Part shown: positions 11,493 to 40,097 of the stretch, one piece after another
Layout of the letters: every line of letters starts with the position of its first letter
Numbering within the stretch: position 1 is the first letter of the stretch
IMG/VR virus record: IMGVR_UViG_3300037247_000198
Span: 1-40,262 of that record
Length of the DNA stretch: 40,262 nucleotides
Source of the DNA: a virus
Direction: 5' to 3' (one strand)
Position numbers and translations under genes: made by a program
The notes under the pieces: model-generated
What the model saw: only the letters and a program-made list of their open reading frames with translations
Databases searched by the model: none
Told to the model about the DNA's origin: nothing

Positions 11493-11627
11493 ATGGGAGT
11501 TTCACCTGCAGTAGAGACAACAGCCATGGATATTCTAAGAACGGGGAAGCTAGTAGAGGCGGCCTTGAAACAGTGTCCTAAGATGAAGCCTCGACTGTTG
11601 AAGCCCCCGCCTTGTAAGGCCAGCTAG
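11493..11627 (+). CDS. 44-residue hypothetical protein ending the tail operon
   Basis: This short ORF starts at ATG 11493, with GGAGAG 5-6 nt upstream and 9 nt after the previous stop. It encodes 44 residues: an N-terminal helix (VETTAMDILRTGKLVEAALKQ) and a basic, proline-rich end (KPRLLKPPPCKAS). Its stop (TAG, 11625-11627) overlaps the stop of the convergent polymerase gene (CTA, 11624-11626). Strong ribosome site and position support it; the function is unknown. Confidence 0.5.
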   Translation: MGVSPAVETTAMDILRTGKLVEAALKQCPKMKPRLLKPPPCKAS

Positions 11628-12757
11628 ACCCACACTGGACTCTTTTTAACCTCAAACGGTAGGTCAATCTCAGGATAGATATGGGCCAGTTCTTCTGGCG
11701 GGTCTACATTCCCATCAATCACAAGCTCGTCATGGACCTGGATAGGGAAGTCATACCCGTACTTATCACACATTAACATCCCTCTGGCTACCACCCCTGC
11801 TGCACTCGCCTGAACAGGGTAGTTAATCTTACATTTTCTAATGTGGGACTCATGGGCCTCACCCTCTGTAGGTATTCTTAGCCTACGCTCAAAGATATTC
11901 TCTGCATAGGGAAGAGGGTTTGCTGCCTGTCTGAGCATCCACTCATAGGCATAGTGGTAGTGGCTCAGCCATGTAGCCCTATGCTTAGCACATACCTCTA
12001 TGGGTAGGCGACTTTTCTTTGACAGCCCCATTGCAGATGCATCATAAATCATCTGGAAGTTGAAGGTCTTAGCAGGCTTTCTATACTTATCATCCCTAGG
12101 GTCAGACCCAGGCCATAGTGCTAGCTGTGTGATGGTATGTATGTCCTTACCTGTTGCATATGCGTCTAACATCACAGGGTCTTGAGTTAGGTATGCAAAT
12201 ATCCTCATCTCTAGCTGGGACCAGTCAAGCCATGTCCACAGCCCCGTCTCGTTATCGGGCTCAAAGATTTCCCTGACTATATCAGGTATGTTTTGTACAT
12301 TGCGGTCAGAGGATGCTAGCCTGCTTGTTGCTAGGTCTTGGCGGAAATGTGTATACATCCTGCTCTTGCCAAGAACAGGTCTGATGTATGTACCTCTAAG
12401 TTTAGCTGCCTTACGGTACTTTAATACTGTATCAGCTAGTGGGTCATTGAGGGCCCAGAGAGTATCCTCGTCTGTTTTGAGTTGTTTGTTACTACGGGTC
12501 AGAGGGAGTATGTTGCCACGTGTTGCTAAGATGTATCCTACCTGCTGTGGCTTAGATGGGTCGAATCCTTCATTTGCACAGATGTCCTTGTAGGTCAACA
12601 TCTCCTTTGTAAGGTATGCATCCCAGGACTCTAAGGCTTGCTGTCTTAGCTTGAGGCCACGCTTGCCCATCTTAGAGAGAATAGGGACAAGAGCAATGTC
12701 TACCATGTAGTTGTCTCTATAGGCAGTATGTTGGCTTACGTTAACAAGGTCAGTCAC
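11624..12757 (-). CDS. polA-like: Family-A DNA polymerase, polymerase domain
   Basis: This 377-residue protein starts at GTG 12757. It contains the full palm/fingers motifs of Pol I-type enzymes: TSRLASSDRNVQNIP (144-158), motif A DWSQLEMR (D178), motif B R226-x3-K230-x3-F234-x3-Y238, and motif C VHDEL (H342-D343). Residue 239 is Asp where Pol I normally has Gly. F234 is the usual Phe at the dideoxynucleotide-discriminating site. There is no exonuclease domain here; that domain is encoded about 180 bp upstream as a separate ORF. Together they should replicate the phage genome. It is the last gene of the leftward operon. Confidence 0.92.
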   Translation of the reverse strand: MTDLVNVSQHTAYRDNYMVDIALVPILSKMGKRGLKLRQQALESWDAYLTKEMLTYKDICANEGFDPSKPQQVGYILATRGNILPLTRSNKQLKTDEDTLWALNDPLADTVLKYRKAAKLRGTYIRPVLGKSRMYTHFRQDLATSRLASSDRNVQNIPDIVREIFEPDNETGLWTWLDWSQLEMRIFAYLTQDPVMLDAYATGKDIHTITQLALWPGSDPRDDKYRKPAKTFNFQMIYDASAMGLSKKSRLPIEVCAKHRATWLSHYHYAYEWMLRQAANPLPYAENIFERRLRIPTEGEAHESHIRKCKINYPVQASAAGVVARGMLMCDKYGYDFPIQVHDELVIDGNVDPPEELAHIYPEIDLPFEVKKSPVWV

Positions 12758-12953
12758 GGGTGTAACTTATCCTCCTGCCAGCAGCCATTACAGACAGTGT
12801 AATGCCAGCAGGCCAGTACCACATAACCGATATTTTTGTTATAAACCAAAATGATATGTATACATACGTCCACCGCCGAATCCTTTGTTCCCTGCCAAGT
12901 ACCAATGTTCTACCCGTACCCCATCCTAGGAAAGCATCCTTAATGAGGCTCAT
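12750..12953 (-). CDS. Alternative 67-residue ORF between exonuclease and polymerase
   Basis: This frame starts at ATG 12953, overlapping the exonuclease stop by 14 nt, and ends 8 nt inside the polymerase gene. The first part (MSLIKDAFLGWGTGRTLVLG) looks protein-like. The second half is rich in aromatic and hydrophobic residues and less convincing. It competes with the Cys-rich frame at 12754-12873; at most one is likely to be used in the overlap. Confidence 0.25.
   Translation of the reverse strand: MSLIKDAFLGWGTGRTLVLGREQRIRRWTYVYISFWFITKISVMWYWPAGITLSVMAAGRRISYTRD
12754..12873 (-). CDS. Possible 39-residue Cys-rich protein between exonuclease and polymerase
   Basis: This frame starts at GTG 12873, preceded by AAAGGA 8 nt upstream, and ends with a TGA that overlaps the polymerase start as GTGA, the spacing of translational coupling. 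The C-terminal part reads ACWHYTVCNGCWQEDKLHP, with three cysteines that could bind zinc. A competing frame covers the same DNA (12750-12953). I prefer this one for the second half because of the coupling and the ribosome site, but cannot exclude that the two halves are one gene with a frameshift. Confidence 0.35.
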   Translation of the reverse strand: MDVCIHIILVYNKNIGYVVLACWHYTVCNGCWQEDKLHP

Positions 12954-13515
12954 CTATTCCCCACAGTTCATCAAATATCCCATACGTTGCAAGGCAGTCA
13001 TTCAGACACTTAGCCGCCATCTTGTCCCAAGGTATGTCGAGAGAGTTTTGACCTTTGCGCACCACCATACTATAGTCATCAATATACATATGGAGGAGGT
13101 TGGCAGCTACTACCCCTAGCTGATGTTCAATGCCCTGCACTCTGACCAGTGTAGACGTGTCTGCTATGTTGTGGGTATCTATCTCAGGCCAGCCCCAGTC
13201 TTCTGCTGTGTCACCTAACACGCCAAGGTCAAACATCACATTGTGGTAAACTTTGAGAATATCAGGGTTACAAACCACATGCATGAGGTGGTCCACATGT
13301 GGGGACATGTCAGGCAGCACACGGAAGTAGATGGCCTCCTCACGGGAGAGGGCAATACCTACCCCCACACATGAACGGTCTTTGAGTGATACTGTTTCTG
13401 TGTCGATAGCGACGACGGGCGGAGCAGCGTCAATCGTGCTTAGAACGTCATTAATCGTATCTGAGTTGAGCGTTCTCGGACCGATATACGCGATTCCGTC
13501 AGGGTGGTCAGGCAT
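12940..13515 (-). CDS. DnaQ/PolA-type 3'-5' exonuclease, separate ORF
   Basis: This 191-residue protein uses ATG 13515, which overlaps the upstream TGA as TGATG; a TTG one codon earlier is less likely. It carries the Exo I motif VAIDTET (D38, E40), Exo II VYHNVMFD (N92, D96) and, near the C-terminus, KCLND (D173) where Exo III normally reads YxxxD; the tyrosine position is Lys169. It corresponds to the proofreading domain normally fused to the N-terminus of Pol I-type polymerases, whose polymerase part is the next major gene downstream. It should proofread in trans or as a complex partner. Activity may be altered by the missing tyrosine. Confidence 0.85.
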   Translation of the reverse strand: MPDHPDGIAYIGPRTLNSDTINDVLSTIDAAPPVVAIDTETVSLKDRSCVGVGIALSREEAIYFRVLPDMSPHVDHLMHVVCNPDILKVYHNVMFDLGVLGDTAEDWGWPEIDTHNIADTSTLVRVQGIEHQLGVVAANLLHMYIDDYSMVVRKGQNSLDIPWDKMAAKCLNDCLATYGIFDELWGIDEPH

Positions 13516-13844
13516 CAACCACCTCTATACGGATGTAATGGGTCTGTAGCCAACACACCTCCGCTGTCAATCACATAAGCTCCCGGCACAACGCCATGCT
13601 TACGATTCCATTCTGCGACATAGGCAAACGCTTCTTCGTCGGTGTCAAACTCAACGCGAAAGGTCTTGTCTGTAACTGGTTCTCGATAGATGGCTTTGGG
13701 CTTTGGCTGTCCTGCTTGTAGCAGCTCTAGCCCAAAGGGGCTAGACAGATGGAGCGAGCCGCACTTGGTACACTCTAAGTTTTGGCCCAATCCTGCTTCG
13801 GCTACTACCTTAAGCTCGCTACTCCCACAGACTTTACATTGCAT
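13515..13844 (-). CDS. Zinc-ribbon protein
   Basis: This 109-residue protein has N-terminal CKVCGSSEL and CTKCGS (two CxxC knuckles about 20 residues apart), a classical zinc ribbon. An alpha-beta C-terminal domain follows (TFRVEFDTDEEAFAYVAEWNRKHG). It lies directly upstream of the exonuclease gene and shares a TGATG junction with it, so it belongs to the replication operon. A nucleic-acid-binding accessory role is plausible but unproven. Confidence 0.75.
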   Translation of the reverse strand: MQCKVCGSSELKVVAEAGLGQNLECTKCGSLHLSSPFGLELLQAGQPKPKAIYREPVTDKTFRVEFDTDEEAFAYVAEWNRKHGVVPGAYVIDSGGVLATDPLHPYRGG

Positions 13845-26352: not shown

Positions 26353-26666
26353 CCTGTTGCCTGTCTACACAGATGCACACCACATCTATCCGTACAAGCA
26401 TGTGGAGCTAGGTGCTCTTGTGGTAATGCTGCAAAGACATAACCTCCATAAGTATTCGGATGGTCTATGCTGACTGTCCACCAGCCATCCCTTATAGGCG
26501 GTATATCCTGCTTATCGCGTCTCCCATGTAGAGTATCAAAGTCCTTTGTGTGTGATGGGCAGAGTATGGACCCTATCTTGCCAACTGTCCACTCATATCC
26601 AGGTATATGATGTTTGAGGATAAGTACCATATCCCCGTGTTTGAGCCCTATCTGACAATTATTCAA
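26349..26666 (-). CDS. SH3/KOW-like hypothetical protein
   Basis: The start is TTG 26666, with GGAGGTC about 7 nt upstream and a TTGA overlap with the previous stop. The 105 residues contain KHGDMVLILKHHIPGYEWTV, which resembles a KOW/SH3-like barrel strand pair. A Cys/His-rich C-terminus follows (HACTDRCGVHLCRQ) that may bind zinc. Function unknown. Confidence 0.6.
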   Translation of the reverse strand: MNNCQIGLKHGDMVLILKHHIPGYEWTVGKIGSILCPSHTKDFDTLHGRRDKQDIPPIRDGWWTVSIDHPNTYGGYVFAALPQEHLAPHACTDRCGVHLCRQATG

Positions 26667-27325
26667 TACTCGACCTCCCCATCTTCCTTTCCTGCCTCGT
26701 AGTCCTTGCCTTGTCTCTCTATAGTTGCTTGCTGTCTTTCAAGGAACCACTCCTTCATATCCTTGCTAAACTGTTCTCCCATGCCTAGTCTTTCTGCTTC
26801 CTCAGACTTAGCCTTAGGGACACGTAGTGGATGTTGGTAGTGGTCCTTGACCTCTTGCCAGAACTTATCATATGCCAGTTTGGACTCACTCTTACGACCA
26901 CGGTACTGGAGCACAGGATACCCAGTCTTTCCGATTTTCTTGTCCAGTTCGTGTATTCGGTCAGTCAGCTTTAGCAGCTTGTCACCTGAGGTGGTCCTCA
27001 AGTCTCTTAATAGCTGCGCCTTGTTTCTGACTAATCTCTGTCTCTCTTGCTTGTCCTTAGAGGGCAAGTCTTTCATACCTATCCGACCGTCTTTGCTTAG
27101 GGGCGTCTTATTAAACGTCCACATTGCCCAGGCAACGAAGCATGTTTCGTGGTATTGCTTGTAGAAGATTGTGGTCCTGGTGCCTATCATCCCCTGTTTG
27201 GTTAGAATGAACACCTTTTCACCAGGTAGCACCTTTCGGTCCTTGTTAACTTCACAAAGTGCGTAGTTGCAGGTACCTTCCTTCCTCTTAGTTACTATCT
27301 TGAGTCTGCCTAGGTGTCTTGGCAT
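26663..27325 (-). CDS. Protein with PARP-type zinc-finger-like N-terminus
   Basis: This 220-residue protein is the first gene behind the leftward promoter at 27367-27395, with AGGGAG before ATG. The N-terminal part reads CNYALCEVNKDRKVLPGEKVFIL and later YHETCFVAW, a C-x4-C...H-x2-C arrangement like PARP-type or related DNA-binding zinc fingers. The rest is basic helix (KDKQERQRLVRNKAQLLRDLR, KLTDRIHELDKKIG). It is probably an early nucleic-acid-binding or host-takeover protein. Confidence 0.6.
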   Translation of the reverse strand: MPRHLGRLKIVTKRKEGTCNYALCEVNKDRKVLPGEKVFILTKQGMIGTRTTIFYKQYHETCFVAWAMWTFNKTPLSKDGRIGMKDLPSKDKQERQRLVRNKAQLLRDLRTTSGDKLLKLTDRIHELDKKIGKTGYPVLQYRGRKSESKLAYDKFWQEVKDHYQHPLRVPKAKSEEAERLGMGEQFSKDMKEWFLERQQATIERQGKDYEAGKEDGEVEY

Positions 27326-27340: not shown

Positions 27341-27457
27341 TCGACTAATCTATCGTTATATACAGTATTGTATCACATTAGTCGAAGTTTGTCAAGTTGA
27401 TAGGCTGTATAAGCACATTATCATATAGAGAGCGACTAAATCTCTATAATACTGTAT
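27341..27457. promoter_or_regulatory. Operator-like inverted repeats between divergent promoters
   Basis: TCGACTAAT/ATTAGTCGA (27341-27349 / 27377-27385) and ATACAGTATT/AATACTGTAT (27360-27369 / 27448-27457) are perfect dyads. A further CGACTAA is at 27433-27439. One arm lies in the spacer of the leftward promoter and another covers its start region, as expected for operators. Confidence 0.6.
27367..27395 (-). promoter_or_regulatory. Leftward sigma-70 promoter of the second small-gene operon
   Basis: On the minus strand, TTGACA (27395-27390), a 17-bp spacer and TACAAT (27372-27367). The start is about 27360, 35 nt before ATG 27325. The spacer contains CGACTAA. Confidence 0.85.
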
Positions 27458-27479
27458 TTAATCATTGAAAGGTCGAGAC

Positions 27480-27508
27480 TTGACACAGCGCCTGGAACGT
27501 GCTATACT
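27480..27508 (+). promoter_or_regulatory. Rightward late promoter 1, predicted leaderless
   Basis: TTGACA (27480-27485), a 17-bp spacer and TATACT (27503-27508). Counting 7 bp from the -10 box puts the first transcribed base on the A of ATG 27515. The upstream TTAATCA-TGAA block and the CGTGC before -10 are shared with the promoter at 38402-38430. Confidence 0.85.
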
Positions 27509-27514
27509 GTCAAC

Positions 27515-28150
27515 ATGAGCCAAGAGACTCTACCTGATACGACTGACCAGGACGTAGCTGACCCTACTGGAGAACAGGCACTCCTCAGTCGTATCTCACA
27601 TATGTCAGGGAGTGAGAAAACTGCTGAGGCTAAGGCAGGCTACCTAGGTTATAGAGCGTGTGGGTTTCCTGTCAGACAGGCTCTTTATCTGTCTGATAAC
27701 TCCCAAGCTACATTAAAGCGATGGAGGAAGGACGACCCCGAGTTTACCCGTGTAGAGACAGAGGAACTGGGCCAACTTCAGGCCTCTGTCTCCAAGGACC
27801 TCATCCAACTAGACTTCCTTAGAAACATGCGTATGGCGATGCGTACAGATGCCAAGATTCTATACAAGGCTGTACAAACTGTAGATGCCCTTACTCAGAG
27901 GGAGTTCAAGCACCTACAGAGGATTAGGTCCATGTACTCACCATCTGACCTTGTTACAATGACCAAGGCTCTTAGTCCAGCCGGCGAGGAGCCTGGTGAC
28001 TTTGCATCTGCAATCTTTAAGCTCCTAGAGGCACGAAACGTAAATGAGGAAATGACAGTCAGAACAATGGAGGTTACAGTTGCCAAGGGGCACGATGATT
28101 CCGATGAGGACGAGTCGCCCATCATTGAGGGCCAGTCCCAAGAGGTCTAG
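27515..28150 (+). CDS. terS: Terminase small subunit (probable)
   Basis: This 211-residue protein directly precedes the packaging genes. A helical DNA-binding N-terminal part (KAGYLGYRACGFPVRQALYLSDNSQATLKRWRKDDPEF) fits the HTH of small terminases. A long central helix for oligomerisation and an acidic tail (HDDSDEDESPIIEG) follow. It should recognise the packaging site and load the large subunit. No ribosome site precedes ATG 27515, and the promoter predicts transcription starting at that ATG; an internal ATG at 27602 is the alternative start. Confidence 0.7.
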   Translation: MSQETLPDTTDQDVADPTGEQALLSRISHMSGSEKTAEAKAGYLGYRACGFPVRQALYLSDNSQATLKRWRKDDPEFTRVETEELGQLQASVSKDLIQLDFLRNMRMAMRTDAKILYKAVQTVDALTQREFKHLQRIRSMYSPSDLVTMTKALSPAGEEPGDFASAIFKLLEARNVNEEMTVRTMEVTVAKGHDDSDEDESPIIEGQSQEV

Positions 28151-28640: not shown

Positions 28641-28810
28641 TGGACTGTCAGCATAGATGGATAATCAAGGCTGCTATGCTAGGTAGCCTTCCTGCCTGGT
28701 GCAAAAAGTGTGGGGCAACAAGGACATTTCCTCTAGTAGTTCCTCTAACAGAGGGCAGTCTCAGGTACGTGACTAGGAGGGCTGACATTGAACCAACAGC
28801 CGTCATTTGA
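28640..28810 (+). CDS. 56-residue zinc-binding protein
   Basis: GTG 28640 overlaps the membrane gene's TAG by 1 nt, and the frame ends 23 nt inside the large terminase. The product has DCQHRW near the start and WCKKCGATRTF in the middle, a C-x-H...C-x2-C zinc site. It matches the short zinc proteins scattered through this genome. Confidence 0.55.
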   Translation: MDCQHRWIIKAAMLGSLPAWCKKCGATRTFPLVVPLTEGSLRYVTRRADIEPTAVI

Positions 28811-30284
28811 GAACCTGATTCTGGACAAAAAGGTTTACATTGAGACCTTAATGAAGGTTCAGAACAAGGAAAGGGTACAGGTTCCCTTTAATCTCAATCC
28901 CTCCCAGCAGATAGTCTGGCCCCACATAATAAAGCCAGGAGCAAGGCTCCTAATTCTCAAGGCCCGTCAGATGGGCTCTACCACAATCTATATTGCCAAG
29001 TTCCTAGCTGACTGCTGCACCATCCCCGGTACAGTATCCGTGATTGCTAGTGAGAACGAGTTTGCTACTCAGAGGGCACTGTCTCGTGCCCATTCACTCT
29101 ACAATTCTGTTCCTGAGCCATTTAAGCCCAAGATGCACCATGCATCCTCATACGAGATTACCTGGCCGGAGATAGACACTACCATGTTTATTACCTCTGC
29201 TGGGTCAAAGCTTCTAGTCAGAGGGGACACCATTCATAACTTCCTTGCTACAGAAGTTTCTCGCTGGCATGACCCTGAGGGAGCAATGGCCGCAGCAGAA
29301 GAGGCTGTTCCGCTTAAAGGCTTTATTGTGGTAGAGTCAACACCTTGGGGCGAGGGTGACTACTTCCATACTGAAATTCAGTCTGCAATCAAGGGTACCT
29401 CTGCGTACACATTTATATTCCTGCCGTGGTGGCTTGACCCTGAATATCGCATACCTGAGAATAGTTCTCTTGCCTTAGCAGCTGACCGTGGAGCACTAGA
29501 GTACTCACCCGATGAGCATGACCTTGTGATTACACACAACTTGGATATGGAACAAGTTAGATGGCGTAGGCGTAAGATTGCGGATAGGAAACTTAACTTC
29601 GGCCAGGAATACCCTGAGGACCCAGTATCGTGCTTCCTTACATCTGGTGAGATGGTCCTAGATGGAGTTAGACTAGACGAACTTTCTAAGATGTGTTACC
29701 CAGCGCCAAGGTCGTTCCAGTCCTCGAAGGTCTGGTATCCGCCCATCAAAGGTGGTGTCTATCTGATTTCCGCTGACCCAACTGTAGGCGCCAATGACAA
29801 AGCCGCAGCGGTAGTATGGAACATAGGCGAGGGTATGACTCACTGTGCTACCCTTTGGGGACTATACGAGCCTGAAGTACTTGCAAATAAGTTGATGGAC
29901 CTAGGCAAGCACTATCACAATGCAGAAGTCCAGGTAGAGGTAAATGGCCCAGGCCAGGCAGTATTACTGGCAATGAAGAACTATTCCAACCTAGGCAAGC
30001 GACGTGACTTGGTTACAGGTGTCTTAACCAGTAAGATTGGCTGGCTCACAACCAAATCCTCCAAGCCTTATATGATAGCCCAGATGGGGAGGGAAATCCA
30101 CAATATCGCTATATTTGATATTGAGATAATTAGGCAGCTTAGAGGACTCAGGTGGTTTGGCTCAGACATCATCTCAGTTGGTGAGGATGACCTAGCAATG
30201 GCTGCTATGATAGGAACTAGCACGGCCCAGGGGGTTGGCACTGTTCAAGAGGGATTTGCAGGCACTTACGGATTCAGATGGTAA
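28788..30284 (+). CDS. terL: Terminase large subunit
   Basis: This 498-residue protein starts at TTG 28788, behind AGGAGGG. The ATPase domain has the Walker A-like KARQMGSTT (58-66), FLATEVSRW in the Walker B area and ESTPWGEGD (coupling region). The nuclease domain opens with SADPTVG (D330), the first acidic residue of the RNase H-like fold, with VEVNGPGQ further on. It packages DNA into the prohead, powered by ATP, and cuts it. Length and motif order are normal for the family. Confidence 0.92.
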   Translation: MNQQPSFENLILDKKVYIETLMKVQNKERVQVPFNLNPSQQIVWPHIIKPGARLLILKARQMGSTTIYIAKFLADCCTIPGTVSVIASENEFATQRALSRAHSLYNSVPEPFKPKMHHASSYEITWPEIDTTMFITSAGSKLLVRGDTIHNFLATEVSRWHDPEGAMAAAEEAVPLKGFIVVESTPWGEGDYFHTEIQSAIKGTSAYTFIFLPWWLDPEYRIPENSSLALAADRGALEYSPDEHDLVITHNLDMEQVRWRRRKIADRKLNFGQEYPEDPVSCFLTSGEMVLDGVRLDELSKMCYPAPRSFQSSKVWYPPIKGGVYLISADPTVGANDKAAAVVWNIGEGMTHCATLWGLYEPEVLANKLMDLGKHYHNAEVQVEVNGPGQAVLLAMKNYSNLGKRRDLVTGVLTSKIGWLTTKSSKPYMIAQMGREIHNIAIFDIEIIRQLRGLRWFGSDIISVGEDDLAMAAMIGTSTAQGVGTVQEGFAGTYGFRW

Positions 30285-38309: not shown

Positions 38310-38401
38310 GTGACTATTCAATCATTATATATAATATTATACCCCTTTAGTCACAATCGACTAACAACATATACTCTTGTAGTTAATCAATGAATAGTCA
38401 C
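38310..38401. promoter_or_regulatory. Inverted repeat and CGACTAA sites upstream of late promoter 2
   Basis: GTGACTATTCA (38310-38320) and TGAATAGTCAC (38391-38401) are a perfect 11-bp dyad whose right arm abuts the -35 box. Between them lie TTAGTCA (38347-38353) and CGACTAA (38358-38364), the same heptamer as near 27341-27439, in an A/T-rich stretch. Confidence 0.55.
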
Positions 38402-38430
38402 TTGACACAGACTCTCAATCGTGCTATACT
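38402..38430 (+). promoter_or_regulatory. Rightward late promoter 2, predicted leaderless
   Basis: TTGACA (38402-38407), a 17-bp spacer and TATACT (38425-38430). The first transcribed base falls on the A of ATG 38437. From TTAATCA upstream to ATGAG downstream it parallels the promoter at 27480-27508. Confidence 0.85.
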
Positions 38431-38436
38431 ATCAAT

Positions 38437-38571
38437 ATGAGAGACCTCAACGGGCAGCAGAACTACACTGATAGGAATGTCCTGCTGGAGGTCGAGTTAC
38501 CCCGGGGTTGTAGGGAAACCTACCGGGTGCTGGAACCAAGGACTACACTGAAAGGAATGTCCAATGGATGA
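38437..38571 (+). CDS. Possible 44-residue leader peptide before scaffold gene
   Basis: ATG 38437 coincides with the predicted transcription start. The frame runs 44 residues (opening MRDLNGQQNYTDRNVLLEVE) and its TGA overlaps the scaffold ATG region. There is no ribosome site, so it would be translated leaderless. The same DNA holds a 21-bp near-perfect direct repeat (38462-38482 / 38542-38562) and a GNRA-type hairpin (38510-38523), so it may instead be an untranslated leader. Confidence 0.4.
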   Translation: MRDLNGQQNYTDRNVLLEVELPRGCRETYRVLEPRTTLKGMSNG

Positions 38572-39103
38572 CCCCAAGATGGTTCCGGAGTCTGACCTGA
38601 TAGCTCTCAAGGAGTCCCACGCCACGGCTATCAAGGACCTAGAGACTGGCCACACTTCCGCAACTGAGACGGCCACTGCGGAGCACGATGAGAAGTCCAA
38701 GGTCCTTGAATCCGAGGTTAAGACTGCCAGAGGTGAGCTAGACAGGCTGCGAGCCGACAATTCCCGTCTTGAGGAAGCAGGAAAAACCCACGCCTCCACC
38801 ACAGAGGAGAGAAATGGGCTCAAGGAGGAAATTGAGGCTGGCAAGAAGACTCTGAAGGAAGCAGAAGATGGCCTACGGTCAAATCTGGCTGACCAGCTAA
38901 CCGCAGGCTACGGTATCCCAGAGTCGGCTCTTAAGGACAAGACGGCCGCCGAACTAGGCCAAATCTTTGATGTCCTGAAGAAGGCCAAGAGTCCCAACTC
39001 TAACCAGTATACTACAGGTGGAGGGTCCGGCGGTGAGCCACCTAAGTCCGGCCGCGACAAGATTAAAGCCGGTCTTGAGGGTGACGAACTGCGCCGCATG
39101 TAA
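38564..39103 (+). CDS. Capsid scaffold protein
   Basis: This 179-residue protein starts at ATG 38564, with AAAGGA 8 nt upstream. It is almost all charged helix with coiled-coil character (KSKVLESEVKTARGELDRLR, RNGLKEEIEAGKKTLKEAEDG). A glycine-rich linker and a basic C-terminus follow (GRDKIKAGLEGDELRRM), the end that usually binds the capsid protein. It lies directly before the major capsid gene. Composition, length and position all fit a scaffold that guides prohead assembly and then leaves. Confidence 0.8.
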   Translation: MDDPKMVPESDLIALKESHATAIKDLETGHTSATETATAEHDEKSKVLESEVKTARGELDRLRADNSRLEEAGKTHASTTEERNGLKEEIEAGKKTLKEAEDGLRSNLADQLTAGYGIPESALKDKTAAELGQIFDVLKKAKSPNSNQYTTGGGSGGEPPKSGRDKIKAGLEGDELRRM

Positions 39104-39119: not shown

Positions 39120-40097
39120 ATGGCTATTATAGGCTACTGGGATACTCTCGCGCAAGCCCAGAAGCTCACACAGTCCATCCTCCTCAGCGGTATCATTGAG
39201 GAAATCGTTGAGGAGGGGCAACTTATCCCTCGTCTCCCTGTTACGCAGATTGACGGCAAGGACCTTGTTTACAACCGCGAGGTTGAGACGCCCTCTGCCG
39301 ACTTCTACGACATTGGGGAGGAAATTGCATCCCAGGCGGCTGAGACCTACGACCAGATTACTTCCACCCTCAAGAGGGCCATTGGCCAGTGGGACCTGGA
39401 TGCCTTCATCACCGCCACCTACCGAAACAAGAACGACATGAAGGCCGTGGCGATTCAGCGGGCCCGAAAGGGCGTCCTCAGGACCATCGAGAACGAGCTT
39501 ATCTATGGCGACGACTCAACCCTTACTAAGAGGTTTGATGGTCTCCATGTGCTGGTTGGCCCCACCACGTCCCAGACCATCAACCAAGGCTCAAGCTCAA
39601 CTGGTGCGGCTCTGAGTCTTGCCAACCTAGACAAGCTCATTGACTTGGTGAAGCCAGCACCCAATGTCCTTCTGATGAACTTCGAGATGCAGAGACGGCT
39701 CTCCGCAGTTGGCCGTGGTGGCGGGGCTACCTATCCCGTAGTTCACACGCCCGAATCCCCTGGTGGCGACATTCAGCCGATGGTCACTGCCTACCGAGGC
39801 ATCCCCATCCAGCGGACCGACTATCTCACTCAGACGGAGAACATCTCCTCTGGCGACTACTCTGCCAAGACTGGTGGCGATATGACCTCCATCTTTGCCA
39901 TCCGCTTCGACGAGATTGCTATGGGCGGTGTTAGCCTTATCACCGGCAATCCTGCCTTTGAGGTCTTCGAGTGGGAGAAGCTGGAGAACAAGGATGCAGG
40001 CCGAATCCGCCTAGTCTGGTACTTGACCCTAGGTATGGGCAGTACCTTGTCTCTTGCCTGCATTGACGGCATCACTGATGTCGCAGTGGTAGTCTAG
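39120..40097 (+). CDS. Major capsid protein (HK97-fold type)
   Basis: This 325-residue protein has a strong site (GGAGGG) before ATG. Features of the fold are an N-terminal helix (AQAQKLTQSILLSGIIEEIVEEGQ), an E-loop-like segment (DLVYNREVETPSADF), the spine helix region (MKAVAIQRARKGVLRTIENELIYGD), and an A-domain end with NVLLMNFEMQRRLSAVGR and FRDEIAMGGVSLITG-like strands. It is the shell subunit, assembled on the scaffold encoded just upstream. It has no obvious protease-cleaved delta domain. Confidence 0.88.
   Translation: MAIIGYWDTLAQAQKLTQSILLSGIIEEIVEEGQLIPRLPVTQIDGKDLVYNREVETPSADFYDIGEEIASQAAETYDQITSTLKRAIGQWDLDAFITATYRNKNDMKAVAIQRARKGVLRTIENELIYGDDSTLTKRFDGLHVLVGPTTSQTINQGSSSTGAALSLANLDKLIDLVKPAPNVLLMNFEMQRRLSAVGRGGGATYPVVHTPESPGGDIQPMVTAYRGIPIQRTDYLTQTENISSGDYSAKTGGDMTSIFAIRFDEIAMGGVSLITGNPAFEVFEWEKLENKDAGRIRLVWYLTLGMGSTLSLACIDGITDVAVVV

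Follow-up and report, generated by a model that had tools for sequence, protein, structure and literature searches.

The window, that is, the whole 40,262-bp virus record analysed here, very probably carries a packaging operon under a strong sigma-70 promoter whose first gene, terS, is leaderless, together with a second promoter of the same kind whose transcript is SD-leadered and whose promoter-proximal AUG opens at most an upstream ORF. At terS the DNA geometry, its recurrence and bimodality among relatives and the coding character of the N-terminus were directly observed. In the mechanism that we propose, the promoter at 27480 would act as a strong host-type (sigma-70) promoter for the packaging operon and RNA polymerase would initiate 7 bp beyond the -10 hexamer, on the A of ATG 27515, giving an mRNA that starts 5'-AUGAGC... 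A host ribosome, probably a 70S ribosome with initiator tRNA, would then read the 5'-terminal AUG directly and produce TerS without SD pairing, and the later genes of the operon would be translated from ordinary SD sites. We infer that this promoter acts late.

The terS promoter has 11 of 12 hexamer matches, a 17-bp spacer ending in CGTGC and the TG of an extended -10 at 27500-27501, and can on these features be classed as a sigma-70 extended -10 promoter. Its -10 hexamer TATACT occupies 27503-27508 and ATG 27515 lies exactly 6 bp beyond, so that the predicted +1, from this spacing alone, is the A of the ATG. The sequence-only reading had described this promoter, its distance from the ATG and the lack of a ribosome site, and all were present as described: no SD was found upstream of ATG 27515 or of the in-frame ATG 27602. 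SD sequences (AGGA, AGGAG or AGGAGG) precede most of the well-identified genes of the window, with AGGAGG at TerL, the 38067 gene and the MCP gene, and they also precede many early genes. The recurrence of the same spacing at 38402-38439 was likewise borne out, since the pattern TTGACA-N16-18-TATACT-N4-9-ATG matches the 27480 and 38402 sites and nothing else in the record (reversed control pattern, no match). The promoter rules applied are those of sigma-70 in general, and all start sites are predictions from DNA sequence. Two scans of genome collection contigs yielded no host via prophage or relatives, and Rfam and tRNA scans of the window returned nothing.

Table 1. Positions of the features discussed in the text. 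L005 is the closest relative in which the second-site region is present.
Feature	Position	Strand	Remarks
41-bp dyad GACTAAT-N27-ATTAGTC	27343..27383		overlaps divergent early promoter
Divergent early promoter TTGACA-N17-TACAAT	27367..27395	-	serves gene 26663-27325
Degenerate 41-bp dyad GACTAA...AGGTC	27434..27474		just upstream of terS -35; candidate operator
terS late promoter	27480..27508	+	-35 TTGACA 27480-27485; extended -10 TGCTATACT 27500-27508; equivalent at other distinct terS loci (66 including window)
6-bp discriminator GTCAAC	27509..27514	+	last base a pyrimidine, as at 17/17 loci with 6-bp spacing (window included)
terS, small terminase subunit, 211 aa	27515..28150	+	phrog_4044; synteny with TerL; N-terminus homologous to relatives
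Two tandem 41-bp dyads	38312-38352, 38359-38399		end 2 bp upstream of second promoter; same arrangement in L005 contig
Second late promoter TTGACA-N17-TATACT	38402..38430	+	same spacing to ATG 38437 as at terS
44-codon upstream ORF	38437..38571	+	opens with the ATG at predicted +1; its stop and the next start overlap (ATGGATGA); not conserved in L005
127-nt structured leader	38437..38563	+	two similar hairpins, ~38443-38493 and 38530-38588, the second reaching into the gene
Scaffold-like gene	38564..39103	+	no family match; assigned by position before MCP gene
Major capsid protein (MCP) gene	39120-40097		phrog_212, E 8e-44

The ORF starting at 27515 was assigned as terS on the basis of a family match and of its place before the large subunit. 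The family of terminase small subunits (phrog_4044) is matched by 10 of the 14 members of the window TerS alignment, the window protein alone having no PHROG match at 0.001, and TerL (phrog_2) lies downstream at 28788-30284. The AlphaFold model of TerS is poor (pLDDT 60) and had no structural match in the PDB, and no TerS match was found in cultured phages. In seven close pairs, the stretch from the leaderless ATG to the conserved core (214 aligned codons) shows 53, 38 and 106 differences at codon positions 1, 2 and 3 (P 3e-9). Judged by this pattern the codons that follow the leaderless ATG evolve as coding sequence. The third-position excess indicates that the segment is translated, which makes starts further downstream unlikely, and several relatives have no other in-frame start ahead of the conserved core. 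The coding constraint right after ATG 27515 thus favours translation starting at that AUG.

Relatives were obtained by TerL, TerS and MCP scans of IMG/VR, and a wider TerS alignment (A9) comprised 80 loci. At each locus the promoter was chosen by score alone and the distance was then taken to the first suitable in-frame start; three loci at which an SD-preceded start was evident (L121, L122 and L129) were corrected by hand. With duplicates and loci without a promoter left out, 66 terS loci were kept, window included. The distance from the -10 to the start is bimodal: 22 loci fall at 5-8 bp (one at 5 bp, 17 at 6 bp, three at 7 bp and one at 8 bp), none at 9-15 bp and 44 at 16-40 bp. An SD core precedes the start at 42 of the 44 long-spacing loci but at only 1 of the 22 short-spacing ones, the exception being L132, which has AGGAG within 6 bp before its ATG. 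In the long-spacing class the SD most commonly begins 7 bp after the -10, at the predicted +1, so that these leaders are also near minimal. The empty gap at 9-15 bp is what one would see with a start site set at about 7 bp beyond the -10 and ribosomes that require a 5'-terminal AUG or else enough space for an SD.

With the downstream bases shuffled, an ATG at +7 after the -10 is expected by chance at about 1.5 of the 66 loci. The sequence-only reading had proposed a search for its cassette in related phage contigs. Its exact form (TTGACA-N14-GTGCTATACT-N-TCAAY-ATGAG) had no match in viral contigs; the promoter-to-ATG geometry was found, with 6 bp in L005 (TerL 66% identical; TTGACA-N17-TATAAT-GTTAAT-ATG), in the L007/L029 contig (TATACT-AAGTAT-ATG) and in all at 17 of the 66 distinct loci. 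The base preceding the ATG is T or C at 17/17 loci with 6-bp spacing versus 31/44 in the SD class; for all loci at 5-8 bp compared with the SD class this preference is not significant (P 0.38), nor is RNA structure significantly weaker at leaderless 5' ends (P 0.21). TerS identity among many leaderless members is only about 30-60%, and about ten changes between the leaderless and the SD state occur on the TerS tree, at least 8 of them forced by the starred branches (quick method). At terS, then, there is no SD, and the -10 lies about 6-7 bp from the ORF, as is conserved in relatives. Taken together, the bimodal spacing, the low chance expectation, the repeated switches and the coding N-terminus make a leaderless terS mRNA most likely, with strong support from the comparison. 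The habit is not confined to terS, since among 72 strong promoters in 12 related contigs eight have the ATG of an ORF of at least 70 codons exactly 6 bp past the -10 (0.25 expected; P ~2e-10, although the loci share ancestry and are not fully independent, so that this and the other P values are optimistic and serve as guides only), and three of these eight belong to the gene divergent from terS.

The second promoter would drive a scaffold-like/MCP transcript with its own SD (AAAGGA, 38551-38556), ATG 38437 being at most the start of a 5'-terminal upstream ORF. Downstream of the homologous promoter in L005 comes GATAGTGAAGAACC, with GAAG and not ATG at the predicted +1, and the homologous leader has neither an ATG at +1 nor a long ORF. 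Ten further relatives have the scaffold-like gene behind a plain SD leader, mostly with 16-25 bp from the -10 to the ATG. The sequence-only reading had proposed, as one of two options, a duplicated cassette giving leaderless mRNA at both sites; the comparison upholds the terS part of that proposal, and these relatives speak against the other. It is possible, but on the unlikely side, that the second site also yields a functional leaderless product, the 44-codon upstream ORF being coupled to the scaffold-like gene, a reading compatible with a leaderless terS. Its ATG at the predicted +1 and its stop/start overlap (ATGGATGA) fit such coupling, AUGs at the 5' terminus of SD-led E. coli mRNAs are able to initiate and to influence the gene downstream (PMC4965119), and in mycobacteria the coupling of leaderless small ORFs to genes is common (PMC4633059). 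The leaders of L005 and of the ten other relatives argue against it.

The leaders themselves fold alike in the window (38437-38590) and in L005 (19475-19620), into two hairpins with ACUGA.AGGAAU in or near the loop. The pairing of hairpin 1 is kept through different sequences in the two phages. The second hairpin contains the SD, which in the window sits in its loop, and an outer stem encloses the start codon. Shuffling gave modest z-scores (-1.2 and -2.2), and motif scans of viral contigs for the leader hairpins found the L005 contig only. The hairpins may be regarded as a candidate translational operator of the scaffold-like and MCP genes, as a lead only.

For the terS start, the alternative that survives best is that the 5' end lies 1-4 nt before ATG 27515, or varies among sites, which would leave a very short leader without an SD. 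Five relatives have spacings of 5, 7 or 8 bp, and a cluster at 9-10 bp is seen among the divergent early genes. The choice of start site by sigma-70 polymerase generally spreads over a few bases, and a variation of 1-3 nt would give a leader of a few bases. We nevertheless consider this quite improbable, as 17 of the 22 short spacings are exactly 6 bp with a pyrimidine-A step at -1/+1 in every one, and initiation is reported to be better at an AUG at +1 than at one at +2 to +5 (PMC4633059). Translation of TerS from ATG 27602 behind an 87-nt leader, one of the outcomes that the sequence-only reading had named as its refutation, is scarcely credible: the methionine there is common to the window and L005, but it has no SD, codons 2-29 are homologous and carry a codon-position bias, and other relatives have no start there or no alternative start at all. 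The same low probability applies to the suggestion that ATGAG is no translation signal but a conserved initial transcribed sequence (acting in promoter escape or pausing) that belongs to a duplicated late-promoter cassette. That suggestion drew on CGTGCTATACT.TCAA.ATGAG, common to both window promoters, and it is largely refuted by the relatives. The letters after the ATG differ among them at terS (ATGGTT, ATGCAA, ATGGAC and others) and the ATG alone is shared; L005 has ATGGTTG at its terS start and GAAGAAC at its second start, and in the SD class of this promoter family no ATG stands at that place. A leadered terS mRNA may also arise from a promoter further upstream, for which TTGATA-N16-TATCAT at 27397 is a weak candidate.

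The likeness of the upstream flanks of the two window promoters, also remarked on in the sequence-only reading, exceeds chance (local score 27 vs 15.5 +/- 2.5 for shuffled sequences, 1/500 of which scored as high), and it holds within each phage, the window and L005. In both phages a GACTA...TAGTC dyad of about 40 bp lies beside the late promoters, its end 2-5 bp from the -35 (the copy at the window terS is degenerate), and the second promoter has an additional dyad further upstream. The shared flanks are more plausibly operator dyads common to one late regulon than a duplicated leaderless cassette, and they suggest that a single phage regulator, repressor or activator, may act on both late promoters. 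GACTA-N29-31-TAGTC dyads adjoin not only both late promoters but also the divergent early promoter, in the window and in the L005 contig, and are likely to serve one phage regulator as operators. In the window the divergent early gene (26663-27325) has an SD leader, with 41 bp from the end of the -10 to the ATG. In three relatives, L045 (G015:12627-), L048 (G018:18980-) and L051 (G021:31040+), the ATG of this gene lies exactly 6 bp past a strong -10, and other phages have 9-10 bp or 16-57 bp here. A further strong promoter on the minus strand of the window (24007-23979; TTGACA-N17-TACAAT with TG) has as its first long ORF one starting with TTG 10 bp downstream. On the same strand the DNA polymerase is split (11624-13518) into ORFs 12940-13518 and 11624-12757, which match consecutive portions of phrog_17 and flank a small ORF.

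About a third of the 66 distinct loci have the leaderless geometry, an unusual yet known start mode that recurs across one phage group. The terS loci thus form a natural experiment, in which an orthologous phage gene stands behind near-identical promoters either with no leader or with an SD leader of about 10-17 nt, the state having switched about ten times, and why genes lose and regain leaders becomes directly testable. It is unlikely, in our view, that the switching between leaderless and minimal-SD starts at the same promoter position recurs because SD-independent initiation gives a regulatory advantage. If it did, TerS synthesis might continue when late infection or host defence impairs ordinary 30S/SD initiation, or TerS might be kept at a low fixed dose. 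In practice, the terS start of such phages may be miscalled by gene-finding programs that insist on an SD.

The mechanism of leaderless initiation is established in Deinococcus (PMC12340547), in mycobacteria (PMC4633059) and for lambda cI (PMC4965119). That a phage packaging gene should use it across a clade, with repeated switching, seems not to have been described: no description of a leaderless terS or of such switching was found in the literature, a weak absence as subscription papers lay mostly outside the search, and a search of the leaderless terminase and phage transcriptome literature gave nothing relevant beyond isolated mentions. In leaderless genes of Deinococcus-Thermus a -10 motif lies about 6-7 bp from the ORF (PMC12340547), and these genes resemble terS in this distance, in having no SD and in an mRNA that begins at the start codon, as is predicted at terS. 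They are chromosomal genes with the -10 motif as main promoter element, whereas terS has a near-consensus -35 and an extended -10, belongs to a phage packaging operon and has relatives that switch between leaderless and SD starts. The lambda cI mRNA, the classic naturally leaderless phage mRNA (PMC4965119), likewise comes from a phage gene and begins with AUG, as the terS mRNA is predicted to do, but cI is one regulatory gene in a temperate phage, neither a packaging gene nor part of a clade-wide pattern. In mycobacteria leaderless and leadered starts form two separate peaks, as the terS loci do, and a small leaderless ORF may be coupled to the gene that follows (PMC4633059). The AUG predicted at the 5' end of the second-site transcript (38437) recalls the SD-led E. 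coli mRNAs with 5'-terminal upstream AUGs (PMC4965119), but it is not conserved in the nearest relative with the region. The mycobacterial peaks are a whole-transcriptome measurement in a host, whereas both of our comparisons are drawn from sequence, in a window most of whose other genes are SD-led.
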